DNA of 64,000 bases. Origin: Planctomycetaceae bacterium. GTDB taxonomy: Bacteria > Planctomycetota > Planctomycetia > Pirellulales > Pirellulaceae. The position numbers were made by a program, and so were the translations under genes. The stretch is taken from assembly GCA_027487485.1 (NCBI GenBank), contig JAIYDN010000019.1:62001-126000 (forward strand). The letters are read 5' to 3'. Under the pieces are notes generated by a model, which searched no databases, was not told the origin of the DNA, and saw only the letters and a list, made by a program, of their open reading frames with translations. Positions 1,569 through 42,290 of the stretch are shown here, piece after piece. The first letter of the stretch is position 1, and each line of letters begins with the position of its first letter.

Positions 1569-1591
1569 GCGCTAGACATCGCGGATAGCCG

Positions 1592-1625: not shown

Positions 1626-1665
1626 TTGAACGCAGAGGCTTTTTGGGGCTCGGTTGTGGTAGCAC

Positions 1666-2452: not shown

Positions 2453-2547
2453 GTCGCTTCCCCGGAAACACACACGGGGATTTGGCAACGATCCTTTGTT
2501 GATGGGATGCGAACCGAAATTCACCCAATGTCGTTGCAAGCATCAGG

Positions 2548-2567
2548 AACAGTTGAGGACAACTGTT
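2548..2567. repeat. Perfect 8-base-pair hairpin with AGGA loop
   Basis: AACAGTTG (2548-2555), loop AGGA, CAACTGTT (2560-2567). It lies after the toxin gene, in the short gap before the lactonase stop codon on the other strand. No T-run follows on the plus strand, so a classical terminator is not supported. Confidence 0.5.
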
Positions 2568-2634
2568 CTACATTGCAATTCGAGCATGGGATCACTCGCC
2601 ACTCATGCGAGACGACCCCTATGATTTCCTACCT

Positions 2635-2691
2635 GATGAAGGCTCCACCACAATCACTCATACTCAAAGTCTTCGAGGATGCCGCAACGCG
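2635..2691 (+). pseudogene. Relic fragment of the squalene-cyclase-like repeat gene
   Basis: These bases match 218-274 of the truncated first gene with about five mismatches. The conserved reading is DEGSTTITHTQSLRGCRNA here, against DEGSTTITQVQGLRGCRNA in the intact gene. The orientation is the same and there is no start or surrounding domain, so it is a decayed duplicate. It ends just before the lactonase stop codon and marks the right edge of the repeat-rich island. Confidence 0.75.
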
Positions 2692-2695
2692 GTGG

Positions 2696-21277: not shown

Positions 21278-21310
21278 ACTTTACATTGATCAGAACTTTA
21301 CATTGATCAG
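21278..21310. repeat. Tandem 16-base microduplication at the tlpA-like gene stop
   Basis: ACTTTACATTGATCAG occurs at 21278-21293 and 21295-21310, separated by one A. On the minus strand the first-read copy encodes the last codons (LINVKF) of the TlpA-fusion gene and the second copy lies just after its stop. Slippage or template switching is the likely cause. Confidence 0.75.
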
Positions 21311-24300
21311 TGAATCCAACGTCGTACGGATTTGTTTTTCCGCATCTTCGCCCCCGCCGACTACGATCTTCACGATCTTTCCATTCGCATCAATAATGAC
21401 CGTCTGCGGAATCGCTTCGGCAAAGTATGCCCTGGCAACCGCTCCATCGGAATCGAGCGCAACGGTTGGCTTGATTTCCAACTTGCCCAGCATGGACTTA
21501 ATCTCCGACGGCTTCTGCTCAATATTGACTGCAATCAACTGGACGTTAACTCCTCGATACTCTTGAGCAATCTCGTTCAGCTTTGGAAGGGAAGCAATGC
21601 AAGGGGCACACCAAGTTGCCCAGAAGTCAAGCACCACAATCTTCCCTCGCAAGTCTTCCAATCGAATACGATCCCCTTCTAATAGGGGCAATTCAAAGGC
21701 GGGAGCTATCGCACCCACCAAGCTTTCCAACTGCTGACTCATACCGTTGCCGCTCCCCCCCTTGGACTGTGCGTCTGGATCATCCAGATCGTTCACGAAC
21801 TTGGGATCGGGAGCATTCTCTAACTTCCATTTTCCGAATCGGCTCTTGGTCGCTTCGGCTGCGATCGCATCCCCTAAAACAAGTCGGTTTACCGAAGCCA
21901 AGTCAATTTGACATACACCCAACTGTGGATGCATACCCGATAGAATGTTATCGCTAATCGATGATGGAACCATGCTGATACGCGCCCCCGTATCAAATAA
22001 CGCCTGACACTGTAGCTCTGCCAATGACTCATTCGCGTTCGAGATCCCATCTTCTTTCTTCTGGGTTTCGCTCGTTTCTGCTTGACTCGTTTGTGTTTCG
22101 CGATTTTCCGTTTCGCTGGTGGATGCCTCTGGATTTTGACCCGTCAATGGCACCACTTCCGGTGCTTCGATCAGCCAAATGATTTCGGCAATCGTCTTCA
22201 TCATGATCGATCTATCCGAACCTCGCACCTCCAGCACGGCAAAGTCATCGTTGATGCTTTTCAGTCTTCCACGAATGGCGTCCCCCTGACGAGCCACAAT
22301 CAAGTGCGTCGGAGGATTGCTGCGTTGCATTCGCGGCAACGTCAGCAATTTCTTTTGTGCACCACTATCCAGTTGTTCCATTCCAGCATGAGCCAGCACT
22401 CGGATGCCTCGAATGAGCTCGTTGTTGATTTTCGTCCCCTCAAACATGGTCGAATGAAAGACAGTTTGCATTTCGTCTAACGACTTGATGATTGCTGGAA
22501 AACAATCGCCGTTAGTGAGAAACAAGGATGGCTCGTCGGCTCGAAGCGACCGCCCCTCTGCCGGCTCTTTCTGGGTTTTGCTTATCTGGCCATAGGCGGA
22601 CCGAGCAGGCTTAGCAGGGCTGGCATTCGCAGCCACCGGGTCAATGGTTCCAGACAAGCTGCTAGCCAACGCATAAGAACCTTCTGCAAGCAATGGTTTC
22701 CAAAACAGCGATTTTCTTGGTTCGTTCCCTGCGTTGGCCGGCACGACATCGACTTTATCGATTCGACCCAAGCTTGTCCCCCAAGGACTTGAGAGTTTCA
22801 TAGGGGAGGCTTCGACCGGTGTGGAATTCGCAGGTGCAGCGTTTGGTGATGCAGCATTTGCAGTTGCGGCGGTCGCGTCCGGCATGGTGCGACTTCCATT
22901 GATGCCTATCGAAACGATTTCCGAGACCGGAATACTGACTCGAACTTTGGCTTGAGCCAATTCCATCGTGATGTTCCCGTCCGCCATTTGAATCGCCTGA
23001 CCCGAATAACGAGCTCCCGACCGCAGATCCAGCTGGTACAGAAGATCGATCGGCTTATTTTGTGGATCCGGTTCTTGGCGTTCCGGAAATTCAATGCGGG
23101 ATACTTGATCCACGGCAACGCGTCCTAAGTCGATGGATGTTTGCTCGAATCCAAACGTACCGGTGGAACGATCAAATCCCGTCGGAACACCCAAATAGGT
23201 TTCGCCAGTTTGCAAAAGTGTCTCGACCGAACGAACCTGGTTGTCTTCTGGATCTTTATTCTTTGGATCAGGAATCGAAGGAGCTGAAAATATGGACGTA
23301 TAAACCTTCAATTCACGAAGCGAAAGTCGCCCGGAGCCGATGTTGGTGAACGTCAAGCTACGGTTTCCATTGAGTCGCACTGCTTTGGCCATCTTGATTT
23401 GTGCGATCGCGGTCCCACCCTTCAGCAAAACAAATCGTCCGCGATTCGAATCACACAAAATGCGCAGCGAGATACTCGACACGCCTTCGCTAGAAATCAA
23501 GGATGTCGCGATGTCTGCCGAAATCTCGTCATCTACCAACATGGTGATCGAGATCATATTTCGAGTTTCAAGTTTTCGGAAATGCAGTTCTAACCGCCTT
23601 GGTTCGCCCACCGTCAACATCCAGTTTGGAGCCGCCTGTTCCCACGTAACATCAAGATCGATCGCTGCAAGATCGGGCAGGAATACGGGTTGCGATATCG
23701 CGGTTCCAGCCGTCTCAGTTTCCATGGCCCCCGAACGAGAAAACCACTTGCTTCGTCCGTTGGGTTTGATGGCTGGCACCATCTGCTTCCATTTGTCGGG
23801 TTGCAAAATCCCCGTGTCGGAAGCGGACGCCGGAATGGCTCTTAAAATGCTTCGAAGTTCAGAACGAGGCAATTGTTGAACGCCAGCCCACGGGCTCCGC
23901 ACCTCCACGTGATCGGCAGTCCAATCGGCCCATTGCCCTGAAAACGTTTCTCCATTGTGAAGCTCAAAAACGAATTCTTGATTCGCGAGCTCTTTGGCGT
24001 CGGTGTTTGCCAATTGGGTTTCGCCTGACGAAGCAGGCTGCGACACTCGCTCCACCGCTGACCACGGAAAGACCACATCACCCATGAATGCAGGGCATTT
24101 CCAAACCAGCTTGCCGCTAACATCCTTTCCTAACGCTATCTCCCCTCGATAAACATCTCCGTTGGCCAACAACAGCGAACCCAACTTGGTATTGGTCGAA
24201 GAGCCTTCTCCAGCATTTTCCGGATTGTTTTCACGCGCATGTGCGTAGATGCTCATCAGAGCAAGCAAAAGCCAAGCAACACGGCTCGATCGTTTTCTGG

Positions 24301-24358
24301 AGAACGTGCCTAACCGTTTTGTTGGCGACAACGGAAGTAAATCAAACTTGGGGATCAT
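21290..24358 (-). CDS. Exported beta-repeat protein with C-terminal TlpA-like thioredoxin domain
   Basis: A 1022-residue protein. After a signal or anchor (VAWLLLALMSIYAHA), about seven repeats of 40-50 residues share a NG-[DE]-x-x-x-G start and a hydrophobic strand with a terminal I/V pair: LLANGDVYRGEI, ELHNGETFSGQW, LLQTGETYLGVP, DLRSGARYSGQA, FLTNGDCFPAII, VARQGDAIRGRL and ALFDTGARISMV. A jelly-roll-like insert lies between repeats two and three. The last 150 residues are a TlpA/ResA thioredoxin fold (GKIVVLDFWATWCAPCIASL with WCAPC, then EAIPQTVIIDANGK), probably a periplasmic thiol-disulfide oxidoreductase. The ATG shares its A with the TAA of the upstream gene (TAATG at 24360-24356), so translation is coupled. 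It is the last gene of the five-gene operon from 30598. Confidence 0.8.
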   Translation of the reverse strand: MIPKFDLLPLSPTKRLGTFSRKRSSRVAWLLLALMSIYAHARENNPENAGEGSSTNTKLGSLLLANGDVYRGEIALGKDVSGKLVWKCPAFMGDVVFPWSAVERVSQPASSGETQLANTDAKELANQEFVFELHNGETFSGQWADWTADHVEVRSPWAGVQQLPRSELRSILRAIPASASDTGILQPDKWKQMVPAIKPNGRSKWFSRSGAMETETAGTAISQPVFLPDLAAIDLDVTWEQAAPNWMLTVGEPRRLELHFRKLETRNMISITMLVDDEISADIATSLISSEGVSSISLRILCDSNRGRFVLLKGGTAIAQIKMAKAVRLNGNRSLTFTNIGSGRLSLRELKVYTSIFSAPSIPDPKNKDPEDNQVRSVETLLQTGETYLGVPTGFDRSTGTFGFEQTSIDLGRVAVDQVSRIEFPERQEPDPQNKPIDLLYQLDLRSGARYSGQAIQMADGNITMELAQAKVRVSIPVSEIVSIGINGSRTMPDATAATANAASPNAAPANSTPVEASPMKLSSPWGTSLGRIDKVDVVPANAGNEPRKSLFWKPLLAEGSYALASSLSGTIDPVAANASPAKPARSAYGQISKTQKEPAEGRSLRADEPSLFLTNGDCFPAIIKSLDEMQTVFHSTMFEGTKINNELIRGIRVLAHAGMEQLDSGAQKKLLTLPRMQRSNPPTHLIVARQGDAIRGRLKSINDDFAVLEVRGSDRSIMMKTIAEIIWLIEAPEVVPLTGQNPEASTSETENRETQTSQAETSETQKKEDGISNANESLAELQCQALFDTGARISMVPSSISDNILSGMHPQLGVCQIDLASVNRLVLGDAIAAEATKSRFGKWKLENAPDPKFVNDLDDPDAQSKGGSGNGMSQQLESLVGAIAPAFELPLLEGDRIRLEDLRGKIVVLDFWATWCAPCIASLPKLNEIAQEYRGVNVQLIAVNIEQKPSEIKSMLGKLEIKPTVALDSDGAVARAYFAEAIPQTVIIDANGKIVKIVVGGGEDAEKQIRTTLDSLINVKF

Positions 24359-25434
24359 TATCGCTCGTAGATCGGCAGGAATCGAAAATTCAAAGCTAGG
24401 GCCAAAAGGTTCATCGAAGTGGCAACCGCAGGACCGAAATTGCCCTCGAAATGACCATCCGATTTTTGTTTCTTCTTCAAGTCTTGGATCAGGTTTTTGT
24501 TCCATTTTTCCCATGCTCCGATATCCGCTTGGAAAAGAGCCTGGGCTTTGTAATATGCAGTGTACTCACCATAGTGATCGCTGACTTCATTGGAATCTGT
24601 CGACTTTAAGAAATTGGACGTTGCCTTAAATTCCTTGAGATCACGGCGTCCCGAGATCGAATATACAAGCGTGGCGATTGCGACTCGGGCGGGCGAATTG
24701 TCAAAGCCCCCCATCCCACCGGCATAGGCTACCTGACCACTGCTTGAGGTCATGCTGGTAAAGTACTTAATCGCGCGATCGATGTTCTTATCAGGAACCT
24801 CAATTCCAGCGTTCCGGGCAGCCAACAGGGACATCAGTACAGCTCCAGCTACCGACGTATCCGCATCGCTGGCATTGGGCGAGTATCGCCATGCACCAAA
24901 CGTATTTTTATCCTGACTGGTGACTGAAGTTCGCACGGCCAATTCAAGGGCCTGTCCGATCGAACGTTGCCGCTGACTATCACTGGAACCTTGCCACAGA
25001 TTTCGTTCATCCAGTGCACCGTAGGCCTCTGCGAGCGCAAGGGTTGCAAAGCCGTGTTGGTACATGCTGTCTCCCAGGTAACCCGTTGTGGGGCTCTGCT
25101 CCCGAATGATCGACTGCACCGACTTGCGAATCGGTTCGGAGTATTTTCCGTAGTTGGGATCTTCGCCAGAGGCCAGGAACGCCATCAGCGAAAGTCCGGA
25201 GACACCTCCACCGGACATCCCACCCGTTTTCGTCCATCCACCCTTGTCGTCCTGATTGTTCTCCAACCATTGAAGCCCTCGCTCGTAGATCTCGCGAACC
25301 TCGCGAGGTACGTTTTGCCCTTGAACGGCTGACCCATCCAGGCCAACTTGGGCTAATGCCCAGGAGCCGTGCATCCAGATTGCAATCGCAGACATCACGA
25401 CAAGTCGATTCATCCTATTTGACATCAACACCAT
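24358..25434 (-). CDS. Secreted prenyltransferase/squalene-oxidase repeat protein
   Basis: A 358-residue protein with a signal peptide (LVVMSAIAIWMHGSWALAQ) and alpha/alpha-toroid repeats: GLQWLENNQDDKGGWTKTGG, NTFGAWRYSPNASDADTSVAG, NLIQDLKKKQKSDGHFEGNF. It ends LPIYER, like the truncated protein at the window start (LPIFQR). The cyclase DxDD motif is replaced by DADTS, so isoprenoid cyclisation is unlikely; a binding or scaffold role in the periplasm is inferred. It begins four bases after the stop of the upstream gene and shares one base with the TlpA-fusion gene downstream. Confidence 0.82.
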   Translation of the reverse strand: MVLMSNRMNRLVVMSAIAIWMHGSWALAQVGLDGSAVQGQNVPREVREIYERGLQWLENNQDDKGGWTKTGGMSGGGVSGLSLMAFLASGEDPNYGKYSEPIRKSVQSIIREQSPTTGYLGDSMYQHGFATLALAEAYGALDERNLWQGSSDSQRQRSIGQALELAVRTSVTSQDKNTFGAWRYSPNASDADTSVAGAVLMSLLAARNAGIEVPDKNIDRAIKYFTSMTSSSGQVAYAGGMGGFDNSPARVAIATLVYSISGRRDLKEFKATSNFLKSTDSNEVSDHYGEYTAYYKAQALFQADIGAWEKWNKNLIQDLKKKQKSDGHFEGNFGPAVATSMNLLALALNFRFLPIYER

Positions 25435-25438
25435 TTAC

Positions 25439-26377
25439 CTAGCGCCCCAGTCTTTCATCAGGCAAAACCTTCATTTTGATTCGATTCAATCTTTGCATAT
25501 TGCCGAGATCACCGATCTCGTTCTTCGGAACATTACGCAGCACTTCCATCTGCCCCAGATGAAGTCCGCAGACATCTGCTGCACCCAAGAGCCTTTCACA
25601 CCATTTCCAAAATGGATCATCAAGCGATTCTTGAGTATTCAGCCACTGGAGCACGGATGCACGTTGCGTTTCAACAAGTCCCAGCTTCCGTTGAAACTGC
25701 AGCAATATCTGCAATCTTCGAGAGCGATGCCGATTCGCTTCCACCAAAACCTTATCCTGTGCCAGCTTATCCGTTTGTTCCGTCGTCAACATGGACCGTA
25801 GTACTTTGCGCCAAATCTCGTTGGCATCACCTCCTGGTGAATTGATTTGATTTGCATAGCCATACACATTTTGCTGTATTTGCTGAAACTGCTCGATGGT
25901 CATTTTCGAATCGAACTCGCTCAAGAGAGTTTCGATTTTGGCGTGGATCTGTTGTATGTCGATCTCGATCGCGTTTTCGACCTTCAGCTTTTGTTCTTCC
26001 GACAATCCACAAATCTGCTCGATGCGATCTAGCTCACGACGAATACTCTCTCGTTTCATTTTTTGAAAAGCATTTTCGGAACCACCCAATGCACCGAAGA
26101 GTGACTCCCGCAACATCTGCCGGTTCATGCGAGGGAATGCCCCTTGCCCCCACATTTCTTCACCGTCAGTTTCCTCTTCGGCTTCTTCGAACTCAACGAC
26201 ATTGATTTGTTTGGCAGCCCGCTGCGCCAACGCGATGGACGGAACCAGAAAAACGGTGGCAGCCATGACAACCATCAGACAAGGGAACGCCAAGACACTC
26301 GACATCGAGTCCTTGATTTGCACCACCGATTCGCTTGCTTGGCAATCCCCGATTTCGTTCCGATTACTTGGGTACAT
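25439..26377 (-). CDS. Exported helical protein with LTxxQ-like motifs (paralogue 1)
   Basis: A 312-residue protein of no family I can name. A signal peptide core (LAFPCLMVVMAATVFLVPSIALAQ) follows a 24-residue lead; the in-frame ATG at about 26305 (MSSVLAF) may be the real start. After an acidic segment (FEEAEEETDGEE) the protein is long and helical with LTxxQ-like motifs (CGLSEEQKLKVENAIEIDIQ, LTTEQTDKLAQ, LVETQRASVLQ) like those of Spy/CpxP periplasmic proteins. The same pattern appears in the protein at 26364-27317. If the 26377 start is used, it overlaps that gene by 14 bases. Confidence 0.7.
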   Translation of the reverse strand: MYPSNRNEIGDCQASESVVQIKDSMSSVLAFPCLMVVMAATVFLVPSIALAQRAAKQINVVEFEEAEEETDGEEMWGQGAFPRMNRQMLRESLFGALGGSENAFQKMKRESIRRELDRIEQICGLSEEQKLKVENAIEIDIQQIHAKIETLLSEFDSKMTIEQFQQIQQNVYGYANQINSPGGDANEIWRKVLRSMLTTEQTDKLAQDKVLVEANRHRSRRLQILLQFQRKLGLVETQRASVLQWLNTQESLDDPFWKWCERLLGAADVCGLHLGQMEVLRNVPKNEIGDLGNMQRLNRIKMKVLPDERLGR

Positions 26378-27317
26378 TCAAGAAATCCTCCACCGGATCA
26401 GCCGATTGCAGAGCGTCTCGAATTCTTGCTCGACCGTCCTGTTCGCCTTCAACCTTTGCACCGATCGCGATGGACTCCGAGCTCGCTACCGTCCCGATTA
26501 TCAATCGACTGTCCAACGCGACACTGGGTGAATCGGCCGAAACACGGAATGAAGAAAACATGGCTTGGTTCTCTCGCGAGGCTAGTGCTGCTTGCTGAGA
26601 ATCGGTAAGAATCGACTCTATCCATCGAAGTCGTATCTCGGGGTGCAACGCGGTATTCGTAAATGTTGCTTCCATCGACCGGTACCACCGATCTCGCCAT
26701 TCTCGGTTCAAAACCTCTTCAATGCGTTGCATTTGAGAAGAAGTCAGCTGAAGCTTGGGTTCAAGAGCATCCAAGACTCTGCTAACGAGCGCTTGCTTTC
26801 GATATTGCATTCGCGATACGAGCTCTTTCTCATACTCCGCCAGTTGCTCCGGTGGAGCGCTGGATTGAAGCCAGCCTTTCACAAGCCGTTCTGCCAAGGT
26901 ATCGAGATCTACAATTCCAAACATTTGCTGCTGAGTACATTTGGAAATGGATGCACTTGACTTAGCCTGCCAATCCCGTTCGGCGCTATCAACCATCATT
27001 TGCTTTTGCTCAGTCGTTAACTTGCAAACCGCATCGACAACATTCAGTTCGTTTTGAATCAACCCACGCATCAATTGCAATAAGCTAACCTTGAGCTTGT
27101 CCTGGTTTAGCAAATTGGGATCGGCCTGTGCAACATCTTCCAGGACCGTCACATCCCCATCCTGCTCCAACAAAACACGAGGAGCCGGAATGGGTGGAAC
27201 AGCTTCTTCCTTGGGGGGCTGCCCCAATAAGAAATCTTGCCCTGCAAGAAAGAAAAGAGGCATACTCAAAAGCAAGATCCAAAGGCGCCCATGCAACAAG
27301 TCACATGGGACGATCAT
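26364..27317 (-). CDS. Exported helical protein with LTxxQ-like motifs (paralogue 2)
   Basis: A 317-residue protein with a signal peptide (LWILLLSMPLFFLAGQDFLLGQ), then helices with CKLTTEQKQMMVDSAERDWQ, LTSSQMQRIEEVLNREWRDRW and LTDSQQAALASRE. The first of these aligns with CGLSEEQKLKVENAIEIDIQ in the next gene, so the two are probably ancient tandem duplicates. LTxxQ helices are known from Spy/CpxP chaperones and metal sensors; function here is inference. Its ATG overlaps the TGA of the large DUF4175-like gene by four bases (27314-27317). Confidence 0.7.
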   Translation of the reverse strand: MIVPCDLLHGRLWILLLSMPLFFLAGQDFLLGQPPKEEAVPPIPAPRVLLEQDGDVTVLEDVAQADPNLLNQDKLKVSLLQLMRGLIQNELNVVDAVCKLTTEQKQMMVDSAERDWQAKSSASISKCTQQQMFGIVDLDTLAERLVKGWLQSSAPPEQLAEYEKELVSRMQYRKQALVSRVLDALEPKLQLTSSQMQRIEEVLNREWRDRWYRSMEATFTNTALHPEIRLRWIESILTDSQQAALASRENQAMFSSFRVSADSPSVALDSRLIIGTVASSESIAIGAKVEGEQDGRARIRDALQSADPVEDFLNVPK

Positions 27318-30300
27318 GGCAACGCCTTGCGTTCTAGCTTTTCGAAGTATTGATCCAAGCCCTGACGGTACTCTTCCGGAAAACTGGTACCAGATGTTCC
27401 TGTGGATTGCTGAACCCCGTGATCCTCTCGATTTTCTTTTTCATTGATACCTGGCCCCAACAAAGCGATAGCAGCGTCTTGAGTATCTCCGCCGCCAGAA
27501 CCGCCTCCAGGAGAAGCCCCGCCGCCACCGCCACCCTTGGGGTTGATGCGCTTGCTCTTCAGCAGCAGTTCAATCACCTCGGTTTGAGCTGCGATGGCAA
27601 GCTTCCCCGTGTCAGGACGTTTCAGAATTTCAGCAGCGTCCAACATGGCCAGATCCACTTCTTGCATGAGCTCGATCTCTTTGATGAACTCGGCTTGCGC
27701 GTCGGGCAAGGCGATAATCTTTGTTCGAACAATCGCAATGCGTTCCTCCAATACCATCTGCGATTCTGCGAGCTCATTTGCCATCTTCGAGTATTGCTCA
27801 GGTTCCGAGACCGTCTTCGCTTGCTCGGCAACCCGGGTTCGATCTCGCAAGTTCATTTCCGCTTCTAAGATCTGCATCACTTCTAAAATGATCGACGGAG
27901 GAAGGGAGCTCTTATTCTTGCCTCCCTTGCATTCCCCTTTGCAAGCAGGGTCCACCAAGTCTTCTGCCCAGCGGTCCAAAGTATCCGACCAATACTCTGC
28001 CTCGGAGATGGCAATCCCCTGAGCGACTGCGATACGTTCTGAAAGCGTGCGAATGCCTCCCAACACGTCGACGGTTCGCATCTCATCCAACACACTTTGG
28101 AATTTGACCATGGGTCTGCGTTCATGAAACGCTTCGAGATCGTCGAGAATCACACTTACGGTATCGAGCGCTTTTTCCTCGCGCCCCTTTAGCTCAGCGA
28201 TGCGATTTTGTTGCTCGCTTTTTAACCTTAGCAATTTGGAACCAAACGCTTGTTCCACTTCAAGCGAAGTTGCATCGGCGATCTGAATTTGCTCTCGGGA
28301 CGCAGCCTTCAAGCGCTTCACAAGAGTACTACCTTCAAGGTTGGCCATCAGCTTGTTCATTTCCTCTGCGATCTTGTCGAACTCTGCCAGCAGATCTTCT
28401 TGCTTTCGAACGGCCTCTTCCACTTTGTTTTCTTCCGGGGCAGTCGCCTGATCGCTGGGTGATTGCGGTTTGCCCATCACGGTGGTTGATGGCAATCGCA
28501 GGGCAGCAGCGGGGCTTTTGCCTTCTTGCTGGGGCTTTCCGTCGGAAGCAATCGCGGGTTGTTGCGACGACTCTTGATCCGAAATGGTCGGGACGGGCGG
28601 CGTTTCTGGCTTGGGCTCGTTATTGGGTTCGGAGCCAGCGGTCGCTTGCGATTGATCGCGATTCACGCCTGCGGCAGGATTTTGCTGGCCCGGCGAGGCA
28701 GCCGCAGCTTTGACCAACTTTTTCTCATCCTTGGCTTGTTTCAGCAACTCGGCCACGGATGGCATTCGATTCGAGGCGATGTCCTTCAAGACTTGTTGCA
28801 TTTCGGCCCATTTTTCCAAATGCCCTACCCCAATCGCCTGGTTACGAGCTGCTTGCCGAAGAAGGTCCTCCCCCTTGCTGGTCAAGTTGTTCAACCGGCG
28901 TCCGTTGGCTTGTTCCGCAGACGCTTGCTGCTCAATTTTTCGGCGTGTGTCTTCTTGGTTCAACTCCTCTTCGGGCAAGTCACGGATCTTTTTGTTTCCG
29001 GCAAGCAATTGCAATTCACGGTCTCTTACTTCCAGTGCTTCGCGTTGCCATTTATTGATCTGTTCCAAAATCCACGCGGCGTGATCGTCAGGATTCAAGA
29101 CGTACAACAAATGAGGCGACGAATAAACACGTCCTCGATCGGGCAAATAGTCTTCTGCGAACAAGCGAACTTCGATCGGTTGCGACGGTATCTTTAGCGT
29201 GGTCGCTTGGAATGTGGCCAGACCATCCAGCGACTCCGCGTTCGGATTGCCGGCAGCCAACATCATTTCTCCAGAAACAGGGGTCGCCGTCTCGAACCCC
29301 TCGGCCGTCTTCCATTCCATCCCAATGTGTTTCACTCCAAAATCATCGAGCGACCGAACCGTGAAGGGAAGCTGTTCCGAGTCCAAAAGAACTCGAGAAC
29401 GAGGCAAGCCGTCGCAATAAACCGACGGTGGCTCGTCCTCGCGAACGTTAACATTCAAAACAAATGGCACCTTCGCTTGTAGCCCAAAGACATCCGTCCA
29501 TTTCAAATTCAGAGCCGTCGATAAATCGAACGCTCCACATTCCACTTGAAAGGAATCCTTCGAAACCAACGCTTTTGTTTCATTCAGAAAAGCGTCCTCC
29601 AAATTGCTGGATGTATCCCCTTTCAAAACGAGCTTGGATCCTCGCACCATGGTGACACCACCCCCTCGTACGTCTTTTTCCGTGCCTTCACTGCGACCTA
29701 AGTAGGCGGGAAGTAGCACGGTGCCGATCAATGCCTCCAGTTCAGGACGCAACTTGGGTTCAATCACAATACTTGGGGTCGCATCACCTACTTGAAGGTC
29801 TAGCTTCCCCTGGCTGATCTGCGGTGGGATATCGAATGCATAAGCCTGATCGGATAGAGAACTCTCTAGTTTGGTTTGCGTCCCAATCGAAGCAGAAGCC
29901 GTCGATGGGTTCCATTCGGAATTAGGTGCAAGCTTGATTGCGATTGGGAAAGCTTCTCCATGAGGCACAATCACCTTGCTCGGAACATCATCCAGGGCAG
30001 CAAACGTATATCTTTCAATCTGAGATAACGGGGACGAGAAGCGAGCCCACGCATTTTTAGCCGCCGCTGGAAAAATCATGCCGAGCGAAACAGCAATCGC
30101 AACCCCGGTTGCAGCAACCACGGAGAAGCCGCGATGGAAGGACTGAGGTGTCGCAACCAACAAATCCTTTTTGGAAGATTCTGCAGCAACTTGCTCCAGT
30201 GCGGCGCGGCAAAGAGCTGGGGATCGCTTTTGTTCCGAAGTGCTGCTGGACAATTCAATGGCACCCAGCAACGAATCTCCGACTGCGGGCATTTTCTTAC

Positions 30301-30598
30301 CTAAGAGTTTTGCTATCGATTCCGAAGATCGCACACCGAGCACCCAGCGTTGGAACCACAGGGGAATCGTCGCGACCCCCATGGTGGATGCTAGCAAGAC
30401 CGCTGCGCGAACCCAAGCGGGCGAATCGAAGAGACGATCCAACACGAACACAGCAAAGAACCCGAAGAATATTGCAAAGATCGCGATCGCAAACGACTCC
30501 AGCATCTTGATCGACCAGACACGTTTTTGAAACGCCCCAAGTTGACGTTGCAACCCCTCCGGAATCGCAATGCTTTGATTCGATTGTGTTTCACTCAT
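27314..30598 (-). CDS. Large membrane-anchored DUF4175-like protein
   Basis: A 1094-residue protein. Two transmembrane segments lie near residues 33-57 and 63-82 (SFAIAIFAIFFGFFAVFVLD, VRAAVLLASTMGVATIPLWF) and a third near 158-178 (VVAATGVAIAVSLGMIFPAA). A large periplasmic part has Ig-like strands (VPHGEAFPIAIKLAPNSEW, FTVRSLDDFGVKHIGMEWKT), then a long Gln/Glu-rich coiled coil and a Gly-rich tail (GGGGGGASPGGGSGGG). The DUF4175 resemblance is from memory. The start is the ATG at 30598 because AGGAGGGG lies 11 bases upstream; a longer frame to 30892 would cross the divergent promoter region. First gene of the operon running down to 21290. Confidence 0.75.
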   Translation of the reverse strand: MSETQSNQSIAIPEGLQRQLGAFQKRVWSIKMLESFAIAIFAIFFGFFAVFVLDRLFDSPAWVRAAVLLASTMGVATIPLWFQRWVLGVRSSESIAKLLGKKMPAVGDSLLGAIELSSSTSEQKRSPALCRAALEQVAAESSKKDLLVATPQSFHRGFSVVAATGVAIAVSLGMIFPAAAKNAWARFSSPLSQIERYTFAALDDVPSKVIVPHGEAFPIAIKLAPNSEWNPSTASASIGTQTKLESSLSDQAYAFDIPPQISQGKLDLQVGDATPSIVIEPKLRPELEALIGTVLLPAYLGRSEGTEKDVRGGGVTMVRGSKLVLKGDTSSNLEDAFLNETKALVSKDSFQVECGAFDLSTALNLKWTDVFGLQAKVPFVLNVNVREDEPPSVYCDGLPRSRVLLDSEQLPFTVRSLDDFGVKHIGMEWKTAEGFETATPVSGEMMLAAGNPNAESLDGLATFQATTLKIPSQPIEVRLFAEDYLPDRGRVYSSPHLLYVLNPDDHAAWILEQINKWQREALEVRDRELQLLAGNKKIRDLPEEELNQEDTRRKIEQQASAEQANGRRLNNLTSKGEDLLRQAARNQAIGVGHLEKWAEMQQVLKDIASNRMPSVAELLKQAKDEKKLVKAAAASPGQQNPAAGVNRDQSQATAGSEPNNEPKPETPPVPTISDQESSQQPAIASDGKPQQEGKSPAAALRLPSTTVMGKPQSPSDQATAPEENKVEEAVRKQEDLLAEFDKIAEEMNKLMANLEGSTLVKRLKAASREQIQIADATSLEVEQAFGSKLLRLKSEQQNRIAELKGREEKALDTVSVILDDLEAFHERRPMVKFQSVLDEMRTVDVLGGIRTLSERIAVAQGIAISEAEYWSDTLDRWAEDLVDPACKGECKGGKNKSSLPPSIILEVMQILEAEMNLRDRTRVAEQAKTVSEPEQYSKMANELAESQMVLEERIAIVRTKIIALPDAQAEFIKEIELMQEVDLAMLDAAEILKRPDTGKLAIAAQTEVIELLLKSKRINPKGGGGGGASPGGGSGGGDTQDAAIALLGPGINEKENREDHGVQQSTGTSGTSFPEEYRQGLDQYFEKLERKALP

Positions 30599-30885
30599 GG
30601 TATTTCCTAACCCCTCCTGCGATTCCCCAAAAACTGATCCTTCCAGTATACGGCGAGTCAGCATCTGTTCACAATGAAATGACCATTTTCCCAGCTGTCT
30701 AACTGAGGATTTCTTGCAAAATTGTGTTGGAGCGTAGAAAAACGAGGCTGGCATGACCGGTCGTGTCAAGCATGTGTGCGATGAATTGATTAACTCAGCA
30801 ACGACCACTCGCCGACACGATATCAGGCAGACGCAAGTGGTTGGTGCATTTTGATCACCAGCAGGCCCCAAAGGAAAAGCGGTAC
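30599..30885. promoter_or_regulatory. Divergent intergenic region, likely promoter of the five-gene envelope operon
   Basis: This 287-base gap separates the minus-strand DUF4175-like gene (start 30598) from the plus-strand gene at 30886. AGGAGGGG on the minus strand, just upstream of 30598, is a clear ribosome binding site. No perfect -35/-10 pair stands out on either strand. The promoter call is by position only. Confidence 0.4.
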
Positions 30886-31209
30886 ATGGCAAAGTTCTAC
30901 GTTCAAAGTGGTTCGCTTCGTGGCATCGTCGATTGTTTCGACTCCGAATGCGCAGGTGTCTGGGCGGTCAATCGTGTCATGGACCGAATTGCATCGTTGC
31001 CAGCAACCGATGCTCCCATGGACGACGATCAACCATGGGAAGAAGAACACGATATTGGCATGTTTGCTCTCGAGGACTCGATCCGAATCAGTGAGAAGGG
31101 CTTTGATCGAGACGATTGCGAAGTTCTAGACACTCACATGGCTTTTGTTCATTGGCATCAACTGAAAAAAGCGATTGATGCAATGCATCAGCAATGGGAC
31201 GAAATGTAA
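30886..31209 (+). CDS. Conserved-looking hypothetical protein
   Basis: A 107-residue cytoplasmic protein: MAKFYVQSGSLRGIVDCFDS, then VWAVNRVMDRIASLP, an acidic DDDQPWEEEHD stretch, and MFALEDSIRISEKGF. It has no signal peptide or membrane segment and I recognise no named family. The mixed alpha/beta pattern and good codon flow argue for a real gene. AAAGGAAAAG precedes the ATG at 30886; an upstream TTG at 30841 in the same frame is less likely. It is divergent from the envelope operon. Confidence 0.6.
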   Translation: MAKFYVQSGSLRGIVDCFDSECAGVWAVNRVMDRIASLPATDAPMDDDQPWEEEHDIGMFALEDSIRISEKGFDRDDCEVLDTHMAFVHWHQLKKAIDAMHQQWDEM

Positions 31210-31535: not shown

Positions 31536-32513
31536 CTATTTCCCTTCCATCGCAGGGAACATTTCCCTCGCCATTTGGATGGCTGCTGGGCCTACCAACA
31601 CAACGAAGACCCCAGGAAAGATAAATATAACGAGAGGAAATATCAACTTGACGGCTGTCTTTGCAGCTTTTTCTTCTGCGATTTGTTGTCGCTTGATTCG
31701 CATCGCTTCACTCTGAACGCGAAGTGCCTGGGCCACTCCCGACCCAAACTTATCCGCCTGAATCAAAAGTGAAGCGAGCGTTCTAAGATCCTCAACTCCC
31801 GTTCTGTTTCCAAGCTCTTGGAGCACGGACGCACGGACTCGACCCATTTGCAAATGCAAGGTACTTAACTGGAGCTCATCCGACAGAACGCGATAAGAAT
31901 TTCGCATTTCGTCGGCGACTTTTCTAATACCTTGATCCAGCCCCAAACCGGCCTCAACACTAACCACCAAAAGGTCAAGCGCATCGGGCAAGCCTAGAGT
32001 GATCTGCTTCTTACGATTGGATCGCATCATATCCAAGATGAATTCGGGCAGGAAGAACGCAATACCGGCGCCGAGAACAGAGCGAAGCAGCAGTGCTGGT
32101 GTTAGACCGGTCATTATCAGCGTGACCCCTCCAGCAAGAACCAATCCCGTGACTGCGGCCAAAACCTTGATTGTCAAAAAAATCCCACTAGCGGCTTCGC
32201 TTCGAAAACCTGCTTCAGCCAATCTCATTTTCAGCTTATCACGTTCTTCTTCGGTTTTCGCTTCCATGTGCTTAGAAAGTACCGGAGAAGCCTGCTCTAA
32301 AACCTTCGCGAATTTCTCGACGTTTGACTCCTTAGATTCAGTGCCCTTGCGAAGCGAAACGTTCAGCATTTCTAAACGACTCTCGGCTGCACCTCGACTT
32401 TCACCGCTAAAGTAGTCGACCGCAAACCAAGCAAACGAACCGACCGCAATAAACACGCAAACAATAGCAATCATGGCTAACATGTTGGTATCGAGTGCTG
32501 CGAGAGTCATCAT
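31536..32513 (-). CDS. tadC: Type II secretion system F family protein, TadC-like
   Basis: A 325-residue protein with an N-terminal transmembrane helix (MIAIVCVFIAVGSFAWFAVD), central helices (GIFLTIKVLAAVTGLVLAGG), and the T2SSF domain (LPDALDLLVVSVEAGLGLDQ, SVLQELGNRTGVEDLRTLAS), ending in another membrane segment (LIFPLVIFIFPGVFVVLVGP). It forms the inner-membrane platform of the Tad/Flp pilus with TadB. It follows tadB after 39 bases. Pilin, secretin and TadZ genes are not in the window. Confidence 0.88.
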   Translation of the reverse strand: MMTLAALDTNMLAMIAIVCVFIAVGSFAWFAVDYFSGESRGAAESRLEMLNVSLRKGTESKESNVEKFAKVLEQASPVLSKHMEAKTEEERDKLKMRLAEAGFRSEAASGIFLTIKVLAAVTGLVLAGGVTLIMTGLTPALLLRSVLGAGIAFFLPEFILDMMRSNRKKQITLGLPDALDLLVVSVEAGLGLDQGIRKVADEMRNSYRVLSDELQLSTLHLQMGRVRASVLQELGNRTGVEDLRTLASLLIQADKFGSGVAQALRVQSEAMRIKRQQIAEEKAAKTAVKLIFPLVIFIFPGVFVVLVGPAAIQMAREMFPAMEGK

Positions 32514-32552
32514 AAACGAGATTCCTTGATTATCCGATTCAATACAAACATG

Positions 32553-33518
32553 CTATACTTTGATGTCGATGATCTTTTTGATCACAAACGCGCCGATCAA
32601 CTGCATCACAATCGCACCGCCAAGCATCCATTGCCCCATTGGGTCAGTGAACAATTTCATGATGTAGTCTCTGTTGGTGAAGAGCATCATCGTGAACAAT
32701 CCTGGTGGCAGTGCCAACAATACGATTCCAGACAATCGACCTTCACCTGTCAGGGCCTGAATCTGCCCTGCCAACCGATAACGCGCACGTACCAATTTGC
32801 CGATTTTGTCAAGAATTTCAGCCAAGTCACCGCCCGTTTGACGCTGCAAAATCACAGCGGTAGCAAAAAACCGAAGATCGAGGTTGGGTATACGAACGGT
32901 CATCGCCTCAAGCGACTGTTCTAAAGAAACCCCCAGGTTTTGCTCTTCGAAACATCGACCGAACTCGCGAGCGAGCGGATCTTGCATTTCTTCAGCAATC
33001 AAGCCAAACCCTGCACCTAAAGAGTGCCCAGCACGAAGGGACCGACTTAGCATCTCCAGCGCTTCTGGTAATTGCGCATTGACACGATTGATTCTCCTCT
33101 TTCGCTTCATGCTGACCCACAGGAAAGGCGTGAAGAAAAGTCCCGCCCCCACCAGTGGCGCGATGAAGAATGGAATCGGTAAAAGCAGTAAACCTACCGT
33201 TCCCGCCAAAGCAAGTCCAACACACAATATGGAGAACTTGCTGGGCGGAAGCTTGACATCCGCCTGTTCCAACATCACTTTGATATTGAACTTTCGATCC
33301 ATCCACTCTTCAAGAAAATTGGTGGATGACACGAGGGGATTCCGAAGAGCAGAAAACTCTTCCTCCCCTCTAACGTCTCCCATTCGGCCTTGAGCAGTTA
33401 ACGTGGCTAGACGATCTTCCGCAATGGACGCTTCGTCTCCTCGCATCAATGTTGCAACGAATCCAACAATGGCGGCAACGCATAACCCTACTGACCCGGC
33501 AACAATTAGTACCAGCAT
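32553..33518 (-). CDS. tadB: Type II secretion system F family protein, TadB-like
   Basis: A 321-residue protein with membrane segments at the N-terminus (VLIVAGSVGLCVAAIVGFVA), centre (LCVGLALAGTVGLLLLPIPF) and C-terminus. The T2SSF domain reads LPEALEMLSRSLRAGHSLGAGF, then GVSLEQSLEAMTVRIPN and LQRQTGGDLAEILDKIGK. Partner of TadC in the inner-membrane platform driven by the CpaF ATPase. It starts three bases after the cpaF stop codon. Confidence 0.88.
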   Translation of the reverse strand: MLVLIVAGSVGLCVAAIVGFVATLMRGDEASIAEDRLATLTAQGRMGDVRGEEEFSALRNPLVSSTNFLEEWMDRKFNIKVMLEQADVKLPPSKFSILCVGLALAGTVGLLLLPIPFFIAPLVGAGLFFTPFLWVSMKRKRRINRVNAQLPEALEMLSRSLRAGHSLGAGFGLIAEEMQDPLAREFGRCFEEQNLGVSLEQSLEAMTVRIPNLDLRFFATAVILQRQTGGDLAEILDKIGKLVRARYRLAGQIQALTGEGRLSGIVLLALPPGLFTMMLFTNRDYIMKLFTDPMGQWMLGGAIVMQLIGAFVIKKIIDIKV

Positions 33519-33521
33519 GTT

Positions 33522-34844
33522 CTAAGCTCGCATCATGATCCGTTGACGGAATGCACTTGCTGGCAAACGTATGCCAGCGGACTCTAGGCGGGGCATAAAC
33601 GAAGGTCTCACTCCGGTCGCCTCAAAATACCCATGGGCTTTTCCATCTTCACCGACACCGTCTTGCACAAACCGGTAGATGTCCTGAAGAACGACCGTAT
33701 CCTGCTCCATCCCCTGCACTTCTGTAATGTTCAAGACCCGTCTCGGTCCACCTTGCAGTCGGTTGGCTTGAATGATGAGATCAACCGCACCAGAAATCTG
33801 CTGTCGAATCGCCTTTACGGGCAAATCGTAGCCCGCCATCATCACCAGCGTTTCCAAACGAGCAATTGCGTCTCGCGGTGAATTGGAGTGGACCGTGGTC
33901 ATCGAACCGTCATGCCCGGTGTTCATGGCCTGAAGCATGTCCAAGGTTTCGCCACCTCGACACTCGCCAATGATGATTCGCTCAGGTCGCATTCGAAGCG
34001 CGTTTCGAACCAGATCCGTAGCCGTGATGGCTCCGGTACCCTCAATGTTAGACGGCCTTGTTTCCAGTCGAACTACGTGTTCTTGTTGTAATTGAAGTTC
34101 GGCAGCATCTTCGATCGTAACCACACGTTGGTCATTCTGAATAAAGCTGCTCAATGTGTTTAGCAGAGTCGTCTTCCCAGAACCGGTCCCCCCGCTAATG
34201 ATGATGTTCAACCGGGCTTTGATACAGCCTTCTAGCAACATCACCATTTCAGGTGTGAACGCTTTGTAATTGAGCAGCCCTTCTAACTTCAAAGGGTTGG
34301 AACCGAATCGACGAATCGACACACAGGCCCCGTCCAGCGCCAGAGGTGGAATGATGGCGTTCACACGAGAACCATCTTCCAATCTCGCATCCACCATCGG
34401 ACACGTTTCGTCAACACGCCTTCCAACTTTGGAAACGATTCGGTCAATAATCTGCATCAAGTGACCGTTGTCGCGAAACTCGACCTCCGTCTTTTCCAAC
34501 TGGCCGCGTCTTTCCACAAAGATGTTCTTCGGGCCGTTGATCAAAATATCGCTGATGGAGGGATCTTTCAGCAACAATTCTAATGGCCCAAGGCCTAGCG
34601 TTTCATCGAGAACTTCTTCAACAATCTTGTCGCGCTCCGAGCGATTGAGAAAGGTATTCTCACTATCGCAAAGATGCTCGACCACCATTCGAATTTCGCG
34701 ACGGAACGAATCTCCCTTAAGATCGCCCACGCGCGACAAATCCAGCTTGTCCACCAAACGCTGGTGCATCCGCCGCTTGATTGCCTCAAACTCTTCTTGC
34801 TTCGATTGGTCAGAAGATCTTGGATTGGGATTGGCTGTCTTCAT
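33522..34844 (-). CDS. cpaF: Tad/Flp pilus assembly ATPase (CpaF/TadA family)
   Basis: A 440-residue hexameric secretion ATPase with Walker [14 protein letters not shown], an Asp-box-like [20 protein letters not shown], Walker [21 protein letters not shown] and the His-box [17 protein letters not shown]. The N-terminal half carries the usual [19 protein letters not shown] and [15 protein letters not shown] segments. It powers pilus assembly from the cytoplasm. The gene lies 45 bases after the HAD phosphatase gene on the same strand. Confidence 0.93.
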
Positions 34845-38935: not shown

Positions 38936-39287
38936 CGAATTGCTTCCTAACCGTCTTTTCTTTCAGAAACCTGCAGAATCGAATCGTTTTCGACCCCAGA
39001 ACTGAAACAAGACAATTTCCCTATAAGTACGGTTCGCCAAGACAAAAGACGAACACCCTACTTGAAATCGTCCCCGTAGTCGCTCCGGTTGGCAATAGGG
39101 GGGACAATCACTGGCCCGGATTATTCATGCTCTCGCTGGATCGCCCGTTTTGATGTCGGTTTTTCGAAATTTGCCTTTCACGCTACACTGTATGCAAATG
39201 TAAAAACAGATTGGACGAAGCATCGACTTCGAGATGCTATTCCCACCTCCCTGCGCCGCAAAACAAACCATTTCCCAACCTATACCT
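38936..39287. other. Divergent intergenic region between thrS and the M28 peptidase gene
   Basis: These 350 bases should hold both promoters. The only structure noted is AGCATC (39219-39224) pairing with GATGCT (39233-39238), an 8-base-loop hairpin 49 bases before the peptidase start. No T-box features or clear promoter pair were seen. Confidence 0.4.
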
Positions 39288-42200
39288 ATGCGACCTGTTC
39301 CGTTCTTCGTCGTTTCGGCTTTCGCTTTTGTCTCAACAGTCGTCCTGCCGACGTTTTCTGATGCCCTTCGAGGACAGGAACCGCTATCCGAATCATCGTT
39401 TCTGTCGAACACTCGCCAATTGACCTTTGATGGTCTACGAGCTGGTGAGGGCTACTTTAGCCAGGACGGAAAATCGATGGTCTTTCAAAGCGAGCGTGCC
39501 AAAGACAACCCCTTTTATCAGATCTACTGGATGGACCGGGAAACAGGCGATGTCGAACGGGTTTCCCCTGGCTTCGGTAAGACAACGTGCGCATGGATCC
39601 ACCCAGCCGGTAATCGAATCCTGTTCGCCTCCACGCAATTTGATCCCGACGCCAAGAAAAAACAACAAGTGGAAATCGACAAACGAGCTAGCGGAAAACA
39701 AGATCGCTATGCATGGGACTACGATGAGCAGTTCGACTTGGTTGAATGGAACAAGGCAACCGGTGAATACAAAAAACTAACCGATGTACGTGGCTACGAT
39801 GCGGAAGCGTCCTATTCGCCCGACGGCAGCTTGATCGCATTCTCTTCGAATCGATTGGCTTATTGGAAACCGTTAAGCGACAGAGAAAAGCTGCTTTTCG
39901 AAAAAGATCCTGCCACCGCTCTAGACCTGTATGTCATGAATAGCGATGGATCGAATGTTCGTCAAATTACAGATGTCTTTGGATACGATGGCGGTCCCTT
40001 CTTTTCTCCCGACGGAAAGAAGATTTGCTGGCGCCGATTCGCAGAGGATGGTGCCACGGCCGAGATTTATTCGGCCAACGTCGATGGCTCCGATCCTAAA
40101 CGACTCACCAACATCGGTGCCATGAGCTGGGCTCCCTACTTTCACCCATCCGGCGACTACCTGATCTTCGGCACCAACATCAATGGCTTCGCGAATTTCG
40201 AACTTTACTTGGTTGACGCCGAAGGCAAACACGAAGCTGTCCGAGTCACAACGACCGATGGCTTCGACAGCCTACCCGTTTTTACCCCCAGCGGAGACGA
40301 ACTGGCTTGGACCTCGACTCGCACGGAGAACAAAAAGTCTCAGATCTTTATGGCTCAGTGGAATGATTCGCAAGCCCGCAAATCCCTTGGCCTCAATGAA
40401 ACCAGCCCTCAAGCCGATGGCCTATCGATTATGCCGCCGTCGAGTTCGCAACTCAGTCTTGCAAAAGAACAAGCCCAGGCAACCTTGCAAGCCAATGATC
40501 CAGATTACCGAGCCTCGGACGTGGGCCGGCATGTCGACTATCTTTGTCGTCCGGAATTAGGTGGTCGATTAACAGGCACCGCAGGCGAAAAACTAGCAAC
40601 CTCCTATGTTGCCAGCTACTTGGCCTCGCTAGGCATCGAACCTGCCGGAACATCCGAAACCTACTTTCATTCATTCCCATACACCGCAGGGGTTGAACTG
40701 AAATCGAGCAACGCCATGACCTCCGGCGACCAATCCTGGAAGCTCAACGAAGATTGGCGACCTATTGTCTTTTCCAAAACCGGCACTGTCGAGCCTACAG
40801 GAGTTGTGTTTGCCGGATACGGGATCGTTGCCCCTGCGGAATCAGGACACGCCGAATACGATTCTTACGTCCATCTTGATGTTGAAAACAAATGGGTGAT
40901 GGTTCTGCGCCAAATGCCTGCCGACATCACGCCCGAGCTGCGTCAACATTGGGCTCGATACAGCTCGCTTCGTTACAAAGCAATGGTCGCTCGCGATCGC
41001 GGCGCGAAAGGGTTGATCGTGGTGAGTGGACCCGCTAGCGAAGCTCGCCAACAACTAGTCCCACTTCAAACCGACGGAGCATTTTCCGGAACCAGCATCG
41101 CTGCCATCAGCGTTTCCGACCGCGTTGCAGAAAAGTGGTTTGAGAGGTCCGAAGACAAACTCCTCGATCTCCAGAAGGAACTCGACAAAGGGGAGATGAT
41201 GATGGGAATTGAACTTCCAGAAGTCGAAGTCGCAGCCACGATTGAAGTCGAACAAGTCAAACGAGAAGGAGTCAACGCGATCGGCATCTTGCGAGCAGGC
41301 GACAAGCCCGCGAAGTCCATGTTGATCATTGGTGCCCACATCGATCACCTTGGAACTGGCGGAAGTGGTTCCAGCTTGGCATTGGAAGACGAGAAGGCTG
41401 GGATGCACCGCGGCGCTGACGATAACGCTTCAGGAGTCGCAGGCATGCTTGAAATCGCACAATCGCTGTCGCAAATGAAACGAGCCGGAAAGCTGGAAAT
41501 GCAACATGACATTTTGTTTGCAGCCTGGTCCGGCGAAGAACTAGGACTATTGGGCTCCGCCTATTTTGCGGACCACTTCTACGATCTATATCCCAACATG
41601 CAGAAACCCGAAGATGGAAACAAACTTTATCCATCCGTCGTCGCTTGCTTGAACTTGGATATGGTTGGACGCCTTCGCGAGAAGCTTGTGCTTCAAGGCA
41701 CAGGTTCCTCCCCGTATTGGAGCCAAGAGATCGAGCGTCGCAACGCCGTGGTTGGATTGCCTTTGACGCTTCAAACCGACAGCTATCTTCCCACCGACGC
41801 CAGCACCTTCTTTCTCAAAGGTGTGCCCATTCTTTCCGCTTTCACTGGCTCGCACTCAGAATACCACACGCCACGCGACACCCCGGAACTACTGAATTAC
41901 GAGGGAGCCGCCAAGATCGCCAAGCTCATGGGCCTGATCGCACGAGCATTGGTAACCTCCCCTGAAATCCCCGAATTCCAAGACCAAAAAGCCCCCGAAG
42001 GGCAAGGCACAAGGGCCATGATGGTTGCTTATCTTGGGACGGTACCAGACTACGCCCAAGGGGACATCCAAGGGGTACTTTTGTCCGGTGTTGCGAAGGA
42101 AGGTCCCGCGATGAAAGCAGGGGTGAAGGCCAAAGACATCATCATCGAATTGGCCGGCAAAAAGGTCGAGAACATCTACGACTACACCTATGCCATCGAA

Positions 42201-42290
42201 GCACTTCGAGTCGGCCAGGAGACCGAGATCGTGGTCAAACGTGGCGAAGAGATCTTGCGATTGAAGGTAACGCCGCTATCGCGCCAGTAG
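39288..42290 (+). CDS. Secreted M28 metallopeptidase with TolB propeller, PA and PDZ domains
   Basis: A 1000-residue protein; ATG 39288 gives a clean signal peptide (MRPVPFFVVSAFAFVSTVVL). Residues about 40-390 form a TolB-type propeller with PD40 repeats (YFSQDGKSMVFQSER, SYSPDGSLIAFSSNR, FFSPDGKKICWRR). A PA-like insert (VFAGYGIVAPAESGH) follows. The M28 peptidase keeps all zinc ligands: IGAHIDHLG (His), RGADDNASGV (Asp), AWSGEELGLLGS (Glu pair), NLDMVGR (Asp) and GSHSEYHTPRDTPE (His). The last 90 residues are a PDZ domain (GVLLSGVAKEGPAMKAGVKA). It probably degrades peptides in the periplasm or outside the cell. An upstream in-frame start at 39234 would spoil the signal peptide. Confidence 0.92.
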   Translation: MRPVPFFVVSAFAFVSTVVLPTFSDALRGQEPLSESSFLSNTRQLTFDGLRAGEGYFSQDGKSMVFQSERAKDNPFYQIYWMDRETGDVERVSPGFGKTTCAWIHPAGNRILFASTQFDPDAKKKQQVEIDKRASGKQDRYAWDYDEQFDLVEWNKATGEYKKLTDVRGYDAEASYSPDGSLIAFSSNRLAYWKPLSDREKLLFEKDPATALDLYVMNSDGSNVRQITDVFGYDGGPFFSPDGKKICWRRFAEDGATAEIYSANVDGSDPKRLTNIGAMSWAPYFHPSGDYLIFGTNINGFANFELYLVDAEGKHEAVRVTTTDGFDSLPVFTPSGDELAWTSTRTENKKSQIFMAQWNDSQARKSLGLNETSPQADGLSIMPPSSSQLSLAKEQAQATLQANDPDYRASDVGRHVDYLCRPELGGRLTGTAGEKLATSYVASYLASLGIEPAGTSETYFHSFPYTAGVELKSSNAMTSGDQSWKLNEDWRPIVFSKTGTVEPTGVVFAGYGIVAPAESGHAEYDSYVHLDVENKWVMVLRQMPADITPELRQHWARYSSLRYKAMVARDRGAKGLIVVSGPASEARQQLVPLQTDGAFSGTSIAAISVSDRVAEKWFERSEDKLLDLQKELDKGEMMMGIELPEVEVAATIEVEQVKREGVNAIGILRAGDKPAKSMLIIGAHIDHLGTGGSGSSLALEDEKAGMHRGADDNASGVAGMLEIAQSLSQMKRAGKLEMQHDILFAAWSGEELGLLGSAYFADHFYDLYPNMQKPEDGNKLYPSVVACLNLDMVGRLREKLVLQGTGSSPYWSQEIERRNAVVGLPLTLQTDSYLPTDASTFFLKGVPILSAFTGSHSEYHTPRDTPELLNYEGAAKIAKLMGLIARALVTSPEIPEFQDQKAPEGQGTRAMMVAYLGTVPDYAQGDIQGVLLSGVAKEGPAMKAGVKAKDIIIELAGKKVENIYDYTYAIEALRVGQETEIVVKRGEEILRLKVTPLSRQ

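Follow-up and report, generated by a model that had tools for sequence, protein, structure and literature searches.

A very likely new selenoprotein family in the 3' half of a planctomycete MoxR/Bat-type operon

Introduction

To which system do five tightly packed envelope genes of a planctomycete belong, and what chemistry might their products perform? The genes, here called A to E, lie on the minus strand of a 64,000-nucleotide stretch (the window) of contig JAIYDN010000019.1, positions 62,001 to 126,000 (assembly GCA_027487485.1, family Pirellulaceae), which belongs to a 7.49-Mb genome. An earlier note on this DNA had proposed that their products form one periplasmic assembly of their own. 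Comparison with relatives shows A–E to be the 3' half of a predicted nine-gene MoxR-DUF58-BatA-type operon that was broken up in the window's lineage, and on sequence evidence A very likely represents an undescribed selenoprotein family. Published work is cited by PMC number, from those parts of each paper that were accessible.

Genes A to E belong to a nine-gene block

Relatives of A were collected by scanning one genome per species (84,980 species), which yielded 286; the best 80 of these, all with planctomycete titles, are referred to below as the named loci. The closest named relative of the window's A came from a metagenome-assembled genome (MAG) of an uncultured Pirellula (97% identical). 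A and D were found together in 67 of the 80 named loci, and in all 67 the detected genes kept the order A, B, C, D, E, an arrangement not attributable to chance. By similarity, B was recognized in 44 of the 80 loci and C in 27, figures in which an undetected copy is not one shown to be absent. This neighbourhood check bears out A–E as one conserved unit; the scattering of single homologues, which the note had named as evidence to the contrary, is not what the relatives show. A second sample, 117 genomes drawn from the window's order, contained full-length A in 22 (own genome included), the other 21 proteins being 36–49% identical to the window's A. The best D match lay on A's contig in 21 of these 22 genomes, mostly 2–4 kb away; A and D sit on different contigs in genome G045.

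In most relatives the order around A was moxR, duf58, batA, X, A, B, C, D, E. Among the 96 loci with room to show it (six genomes were fetched twice among the loci counted), 73 have gene X upstream of A at a distance of no more than 1.5 kb, and X orthologues occurred in 24 of the 117 order genomes, including all 22 with A. Two genomes have X only: the contig of G023 ends directly after X, while in G113 unrelated genes come after X, and a 4-kb contig carries D, part of E and an LTxxQ-like gene. None of moxR, duf58, batA and X is present in the window, where tad genes precede A. Elsewhere in the same genome, moxR-duf58-batA is located on contig C109 (locus L086) and X on contig C108 (L085). The AAA_3 (MoxR), DUF58 and BatA domains of these copies were confirmed over the Pfam cut-offs, and X gave solely sub-cutoff VWA and GATase1-like matches.

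Each of the three pieces (moxR-duf58-batA, X and A–E) is interior to its contig, flanked by other genes at either end. Among the 23 loci without X upstream of A, 14 came from the window's clade (19 rows) and represent all 14 of that clade with room to show it. On these two grounds, contig edges were rejected as the cause of the break-up. In loci L173–L175 moxR and duf58 adjoin A on the other strand, as do batA and X in two of the three, and the linked or unlinked state of X and A requires five changes on the tree. The five genes of the earlier note therefore stand as a conserved unit but not as a system of their own, being the 3' half of a larger block.

A very likely cysteine/selenocysteine exchange site in A

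The A genes of four order genomes each contained a single in-frame stop, a TGA, which aligned with the second cysteine (Cys) of a conserved CxxxC loop, DPAC-x-G-x-C-PG. Across the 80 named loci this codon (890 in the window's A) was TGC in 41, TGA in 22, TGT in 14, AGC in 2 and CAA in 1, so that 55 of the 80 have a Cys codon there; neither TAA nor TAG occurred at this position, and no further in-frame stop was found in the aligned parts of A. Another TGA copy was present in order genome G004. When 343 genomes were drawn from the phylum, A was found in 12 at an E-value of 1e-80, and two of these (G418 and G182, both outside the window's class) had one TGA; that of G418 occupied the same position as in the relatives and was followed by a hairpin with a GTC loop. 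Selenocysteine (Sec, U) forms of A mostly read GGT-U-PG, with the first Cys lost, and many Cys forms had three Cys in the loop (CxxxCxxC). On a FastTree phylogeny of 106 distinct A proteins (25 Sec, 71 Cys and 10 neither), computed with the motif columns masked, the Sec label changed 11 times, at least 10 of them on well-supported branches. Three of the first four TGA-type A genes also end in TGA, so TGA is still a stop elsewhere, and genome-wide recoding of this codon was rejected. The in-frame TGA of A in many relatives is very likely read as selenocysteine.

A conserved RNA element follows the TGA codon

Downstream of the TGA, codons 897–899 were GGC AGT TTG in 22 of 22 genes. The six most synonymously conserved of 378 eight-codon segments of the TGA genes all fell within codons 889–904, where conservation reached 0.80 against a gene background of 0.45. 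In the 55 Cys genes the scorable codons between 892 and 902 stood at 0.24–0.49 against a background of 0.38; frozen downstream codons were found only in the TGA genes. A hairpin, GGCA-GTT-TGCC, followed the TGA in all 22, its GTT loop being nucleotides 26–28 counted from the T of TGA. Pairing was scored on 18 sequences (four of the 22 are identical to one of these over 48 bases), and 95.4% of cells paired, a value matched by 3 of 500 shuffles. Folded one by one, the 57 bases that follow the TGA or Cys codon gave z-scores that do not separate the Sec copies as a group. Bacterial selenocysteine insertion sequence (SECIS) elements are described in the accessible part of PMC1088965 as having a small apical loop that contains G. 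Of the features by which the same source recognizes bacterial selenoproteins, A displays a TGA in at least two sequences, Cys homologues, a SECIS-like hairpin with G in its loop, and Sec machinery in the genome.

Selenocysteine machinery in the host genomes

SelB was found over its curated score in 38 of the 117 order genomes; among those bearing A, it was present in 4 of 4 Sec-type and 3 of 18 other genomes (p = 0.005, relatedness ignored). For the named loci the machinery was tested in 50 of the 80, comprising all 22 Sec loci and a hand-chosen 28 of the 58 others. SelB was detected in 18 of the 22 versus 8 of the 28 (p = 2e-4, relatedness ignored) and tRNA-Sec of at least 63 bits likewise in 18 of 22 versus 8 of 28, while one or the other was present in 21 of 22 versus 8 of 28 (p = 1e-6, relatedness ignored). 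Rfam's own score for tRNA-Sec (47 bits) admits weaker matches, 30 of the 50 genomes in all, and the cut-off was for this reason placed where the scores drop from 63 to 53 bits. Within a single genus, G115 combines Sec with SelB, and G103 has Cys and no SelB.

Several observations weigh against a selenocysteine in A. On the tree, Sec and SelB or tRNA-Sec leave 4 independent pairs, too few for the test to decide, and we therefore rejected the plain counts as proof. Neither SelB nor tRNA-Sec was found in the genome of the TGA locus L134. The TGA of G182 (L170) is displaced by a few residues in the alignment, and that hairpin was not seen directly after it. Only one pair of the hairpin changed on both sides, in 2 of the 18 sequences. 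The window's own A is a Cys form, and no SelB over the curated score was found in its genome.

In loci L160 and L165 an AGC codon places serine at the Cys/Sec position, even though SelB and tRNA-Sec are present in the two genomes; this is a possible loss from Sec to Ser. Loci L125, L126 and L131, titled Candidatus Kuenenia stuttgartiensis, cluster tightly with Planctomyces-titled records on the A tree, and it is doubtful whether these MAGs are correctly named.

Conserved thiols and the TlpA domain of E

Pfam and NCBIfam recognized a single domain among A–E, the C-terminal TlpA/ResA-like domain of E (AhpC-TSA/TlpA, Pfam E 7e-25), complete with its CxxC; this had been predicted earlier and is borne out. 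In the aligned members, Cys98 of B was conserved in 41 of 45, Cys123 of C in 28 of 28 and, besides the CxxC (Table 1), Cys816 of E in 46 of 53; no conserved Cys was seen in the alignment of D. TlpA was present in 65 of the 67 loci with Cys or Sec in A versus 2 of the 9 without, a count from which 30 fetched loci with insufficient room were left out. The redox or thiol handling that the note had read from the TlpA domain is plausible as thiol redox chemistry.

The link between TlpA and the loop of A also has points against it. The seven loci that have neither the Cys/Sec of A nor TlpA form two clades, so the association is suggestive; it leaves 3 independent pairs on the tree, with which the test cannot decide, and here too the plain counts were rejected as proof. 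No TlpA was found at L051 (Cys) and L146 (Sec), and L160 and L165, with Ser at the site, nevertheless have TlpA and SelB. In L052, L053 and L055, which have neither A cysteines nor TlpA, the Cys of the B/C-like genes is retained, and this weakens a model in which B and C strictly relay thiols.

Loci L052–L055 and L176–L178 represent two clades with A and D in which Gly-rich or acidic linkers replace the Cys/Sec loop, and no TlpA was found nearby.

Families and predicted structures

No Pfam or NCBIfam match over the cut-off was obtained for A to D, and 20 aligned A members searched against both collections gave stray weak matches alone (best E 0.002). A had been described as DUF4175-like. It does not match PF13779 over the curated cut-off, but it is remotely similar, over residues 66–431, to a DUF4175-scoring paralogue in another MoxR cluster of its own genome (hhalign probability 94%, E 9e-8). 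The structural model of A, built from 43 sequences (mean predicted local distance difference test score 77, predicted template modelling score 0.54), has N-terminal helices, a beta region (208–501) like common immunoglobulin-like (Ig-like) folds and a helical C-terminal part, in which loop 884–894 is predicted to be disordered between helices 860–881 and 901–926. A fold search of this model returned common Ig-like folds alone, at about residues 198–503, and barely tested the helical part with the loop. Sequence searches of solved structures with the A profile and with D gave no match.

For B and C, taken earlier for LTxxQ proteins with a role in chaperoning or metal sensing, the identity is partly supported by 3 and 2 L(T/S/N)xxQ motifs, respectively; neither has a Pfam match over the cut-off. 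The proposed role found no backing, with no match to LTXXQ in Pfam and no solved structure below E 0.001 in a fold search of the C model, which is helical. The two proteins look like distant paralogues, with one 37-residue match (E 0.005). The alpha/alpha-toroid suggested for D agrees with squalene-cyclase matches, all of them below the cut-offs of Pfam and NCBIfam.

The window's genome contains thirteen MoxR-like genes in 13 places; the machine has multiplied there. At least one other cluster, L059, has moxR, duf58, a BatA-like gene and genes for a DUF4175-scoring protein and a VWA-like protein.

Relation to known systems

MoxR/VWA operons are widespread, and the targets of many are unclear. 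The upstream part of the block resembles the Bat (Bacteroides aerotolerance) operons in that a MoxR AAA+ ATPase, a DUF58 protein and a protein that carries the N-terminal domain of BatA are encoded in the same order, upstream of A in most relatives. It differs in the downstream genes A–E, with their Cys/Sec protein and TlpA fusion, and in that A lacks a Pfam match of the BatD kind. Pfam scans of A–E and X, which included no dedicated search for BatB, BatC, BatD or BatE, returned no match under a Bat name other than BatA. The name aerotolerance persists although, according to the accessible part of PMC3557215, bat deletion in Leptospira gave no oxidative phenotype. NorQ/NorD and other MoxR/VWA pairs likewise consist of an AAA+ ATPase with a VWA partner, and the working model for such pairs is target remodelling (PMC13036017, in part); unlike NorQ/NorD, the present system combines a large exported module with several VWA-type membrane proteins. 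The likeness of A to the DUF4175 (PF13779) proteins of other MoxR clusters is remote and confined to the region aligned above, outside which the Cys/Sec region falls. E shares its domain and CxxC with TlpA/ResA thioredoxins, but here the domain is fused behind a long repeat-containing part.

With bacterial selenoproteins, as treated in the accessible part of PMC13188914, A has in common an in-frame TGA, Cys homologues, a hairpin directly after the TGA and genomic Sec machinery. It fits no entry of the 119-family table of 2026 given there, and none of those entries is a MoxR-linked membrane protein of A's kind. Among the titles and opening lines of abstracts that paper searches listed, none concerned the A family or the operon; an unnamed mention is possible in the supplementary table of PMC4807772, which according to the accessible part of that paper contains selenoprotein candidates from two planctomycetes. 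As far as we have checked, the MoxR/Bat frame is known and the selenium-linked module is new. If our reading is true, A would add a selenoprotein family that occurs in more than one class of Planctomycetota and that gene callers blind to Sec split at the TGA. A Cys/Sec site in a MoxR operon also offers something definite to work on, namely one residue, a single candidate partner domain and one measurable element, and as a redox site it would be a testable clue to what the machine does.

A proposed redox machine and its alternatives

In our preferred reading, to which we give a probability of roughly 0.6, A–E make up the periplasmic half, devoted to thiol/selenol chemistry, of a planctomycete AAA+ machine of the MoxR/Bat type, in which the TlpA domain of E serves as redox partner. 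We also lean, if slightly, towards the proposal that A founds a new selenoprotein family as the periplasmic redox centre of a MoxR/VWA machine, which would be a system for envelope maintenance driven by ATP, with a Cys/Sec-swapping site that is recharged by the operon's own TlpA. By analogy with other MoxR/VWA pairs, cytosolic MoxR would remodel the membrane VWA proteins BatA and X, beside which A would be anchored. In the periplasm, thiol/selenol chemistry would be the task of the flexible Cys/Sec loop of A, which the TlpA domain of E would reset, and all parts may jointly mature or repair an envelope substrate.

A possible but unlikely alternative is metal delivery, in which MoxR/VWA would insert a metal into a membrane or periplasmic enzyme as NorQ/NorD does, the loop of A handing over the metal and TlpA keeping the ligands reduced. 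MoxR with VWA partners does serve metal insertion (PMC13036017, in part), and the three loop Cys of many Cys forms would fit such a function; most Sec forms, however, have no other Cys in the loop and would make a poor metal site, and no conserved metalloenzyme was seen next to E in the flanks of those loci that were looked at. The same lack of another loop Cys favours a catalytic selenol reset by an outside thiol over a multi-Cys metal site. We consider it rather improbable that the role is structural, that is, that an envelope scaffold has disulphides which the Cys of A, B and C form or protect, with TlpA doing housekeeping and Sec adding little. The retention of Cys in B and C where A and TlpA lack theirs, and the loss of the A cysteines in several lineages that keep A and D, would suit such a scaffold. 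Repeated Sec/Cys interchange at one residue, together with selection on the RNA element, nevertheless points to chemistry at that site, and selenocysteine is costly and nearly always catalytic.

Still further from our preferred redox reading stands the idea that the TGA is a programmed stop or readthrough site that gives two forms of A and is not Sec at all. An 880-residue form could in principle be made from some TGA genes, and L134 has no Sec machinery that we could find, but the position is a Cys codon in relatives and 0 of 80 loci have TAA or TAG there. The machinery is present for 21 of the 22 Sec loci, and the hairpin has a small apical loop with G, as in the bacterial SECIS elements of PMC1088965 (in part); we regard this explanation as highly implausible. 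Hardly more credit can be given to the earlier view of an independent five-gene envelope assembly. In the window's clade A–E do lie apart from moxR–X and the upstream neighbours differ, but most relatives have the nine-gene block, and the other four genes of the block lie elsewhere in the window's own genome, for which reason a free-standing five-gene system was rejected.

Features and surroundings of the locus

The four junctions of A–E were re-derived on the minus strand and agree with those reported before: an ATGA overlap of A and B (27317-27314), a 14-base overlap of B and C (26377-26364), a 4-base gap between C and D (25438-25435) and a base shared by D and E in TAATG (24360-24356). The start of A is most plausibly the ATG at 30598, and the frame is open as far as a TTG at 30892. 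A promoter scan gave 3 sites versus 6.9 in shuffles. Export signals and anchors (Table 1) were judged solely by a crude hydropathy value, and for A also by predicted structure.

Table 1. Positions of genes A to E and of selected sites within the window.
Feature	Position	Strand	Description	Basis
Gene A	27314..30598	-	1094 residues, membrane-anchored; Ig-like part and helical C-terminal part with Cys/Sec loop	Open reading frame, orthologues, model
CKGEC loop of A	27929..27943	-	Residues 886-890; residue 890 is a TGA codon in 22/80 named relatives	
Gene B	26364..27317	-	LTxxQ-like, predicted exported; conserved Cys98 (codon 27024-27026)	
Gene C	25439..26377	-	LTxxQ-like, predicted exported, distant paralogue of B; conserved Cys123 (codon 26009-26011)	
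Gene D	24358..25434	-	Predicted exported, alpha/alpha-toroid-like; squalene-cyclase-like matches below cut-off	
Gene E	21290..24358	-	Predicted exported repeat-containing protein fused to TlpA domain	
CAPC active-site motif, TlpA domain of E	21599..21610	-	Residues 917-920; CxxC in 53/53 aligned E	
Promoter-like site, weak, directly upstream of A	30645..30674	-	9/12 matches; fewer sites in scan than in shuffles	

Divergent from A lies a small gene of unknown function (30886-31209, plus strand), which has a counterpart in L132 (9350-9733, minus strand) at the same place between tadC and A. The tad pilus genes cpaF, tadB and tadC lie upstream of A in the window (31536-34844), and likewise in L088 (5867-9193) and L132 (5786-9113). 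In L045, from another genus of the family, tad genes (607-3911) adjoin E convergently, which indicates rearrangement around the same neighbours. Further along the window, a gene on the plus strand (39234-42290) encodes a 1018-residue protein that by eye combines a start resembling a beta-propeller, a part resembling a metallopeptidase and an end resembling a PDZ domain.

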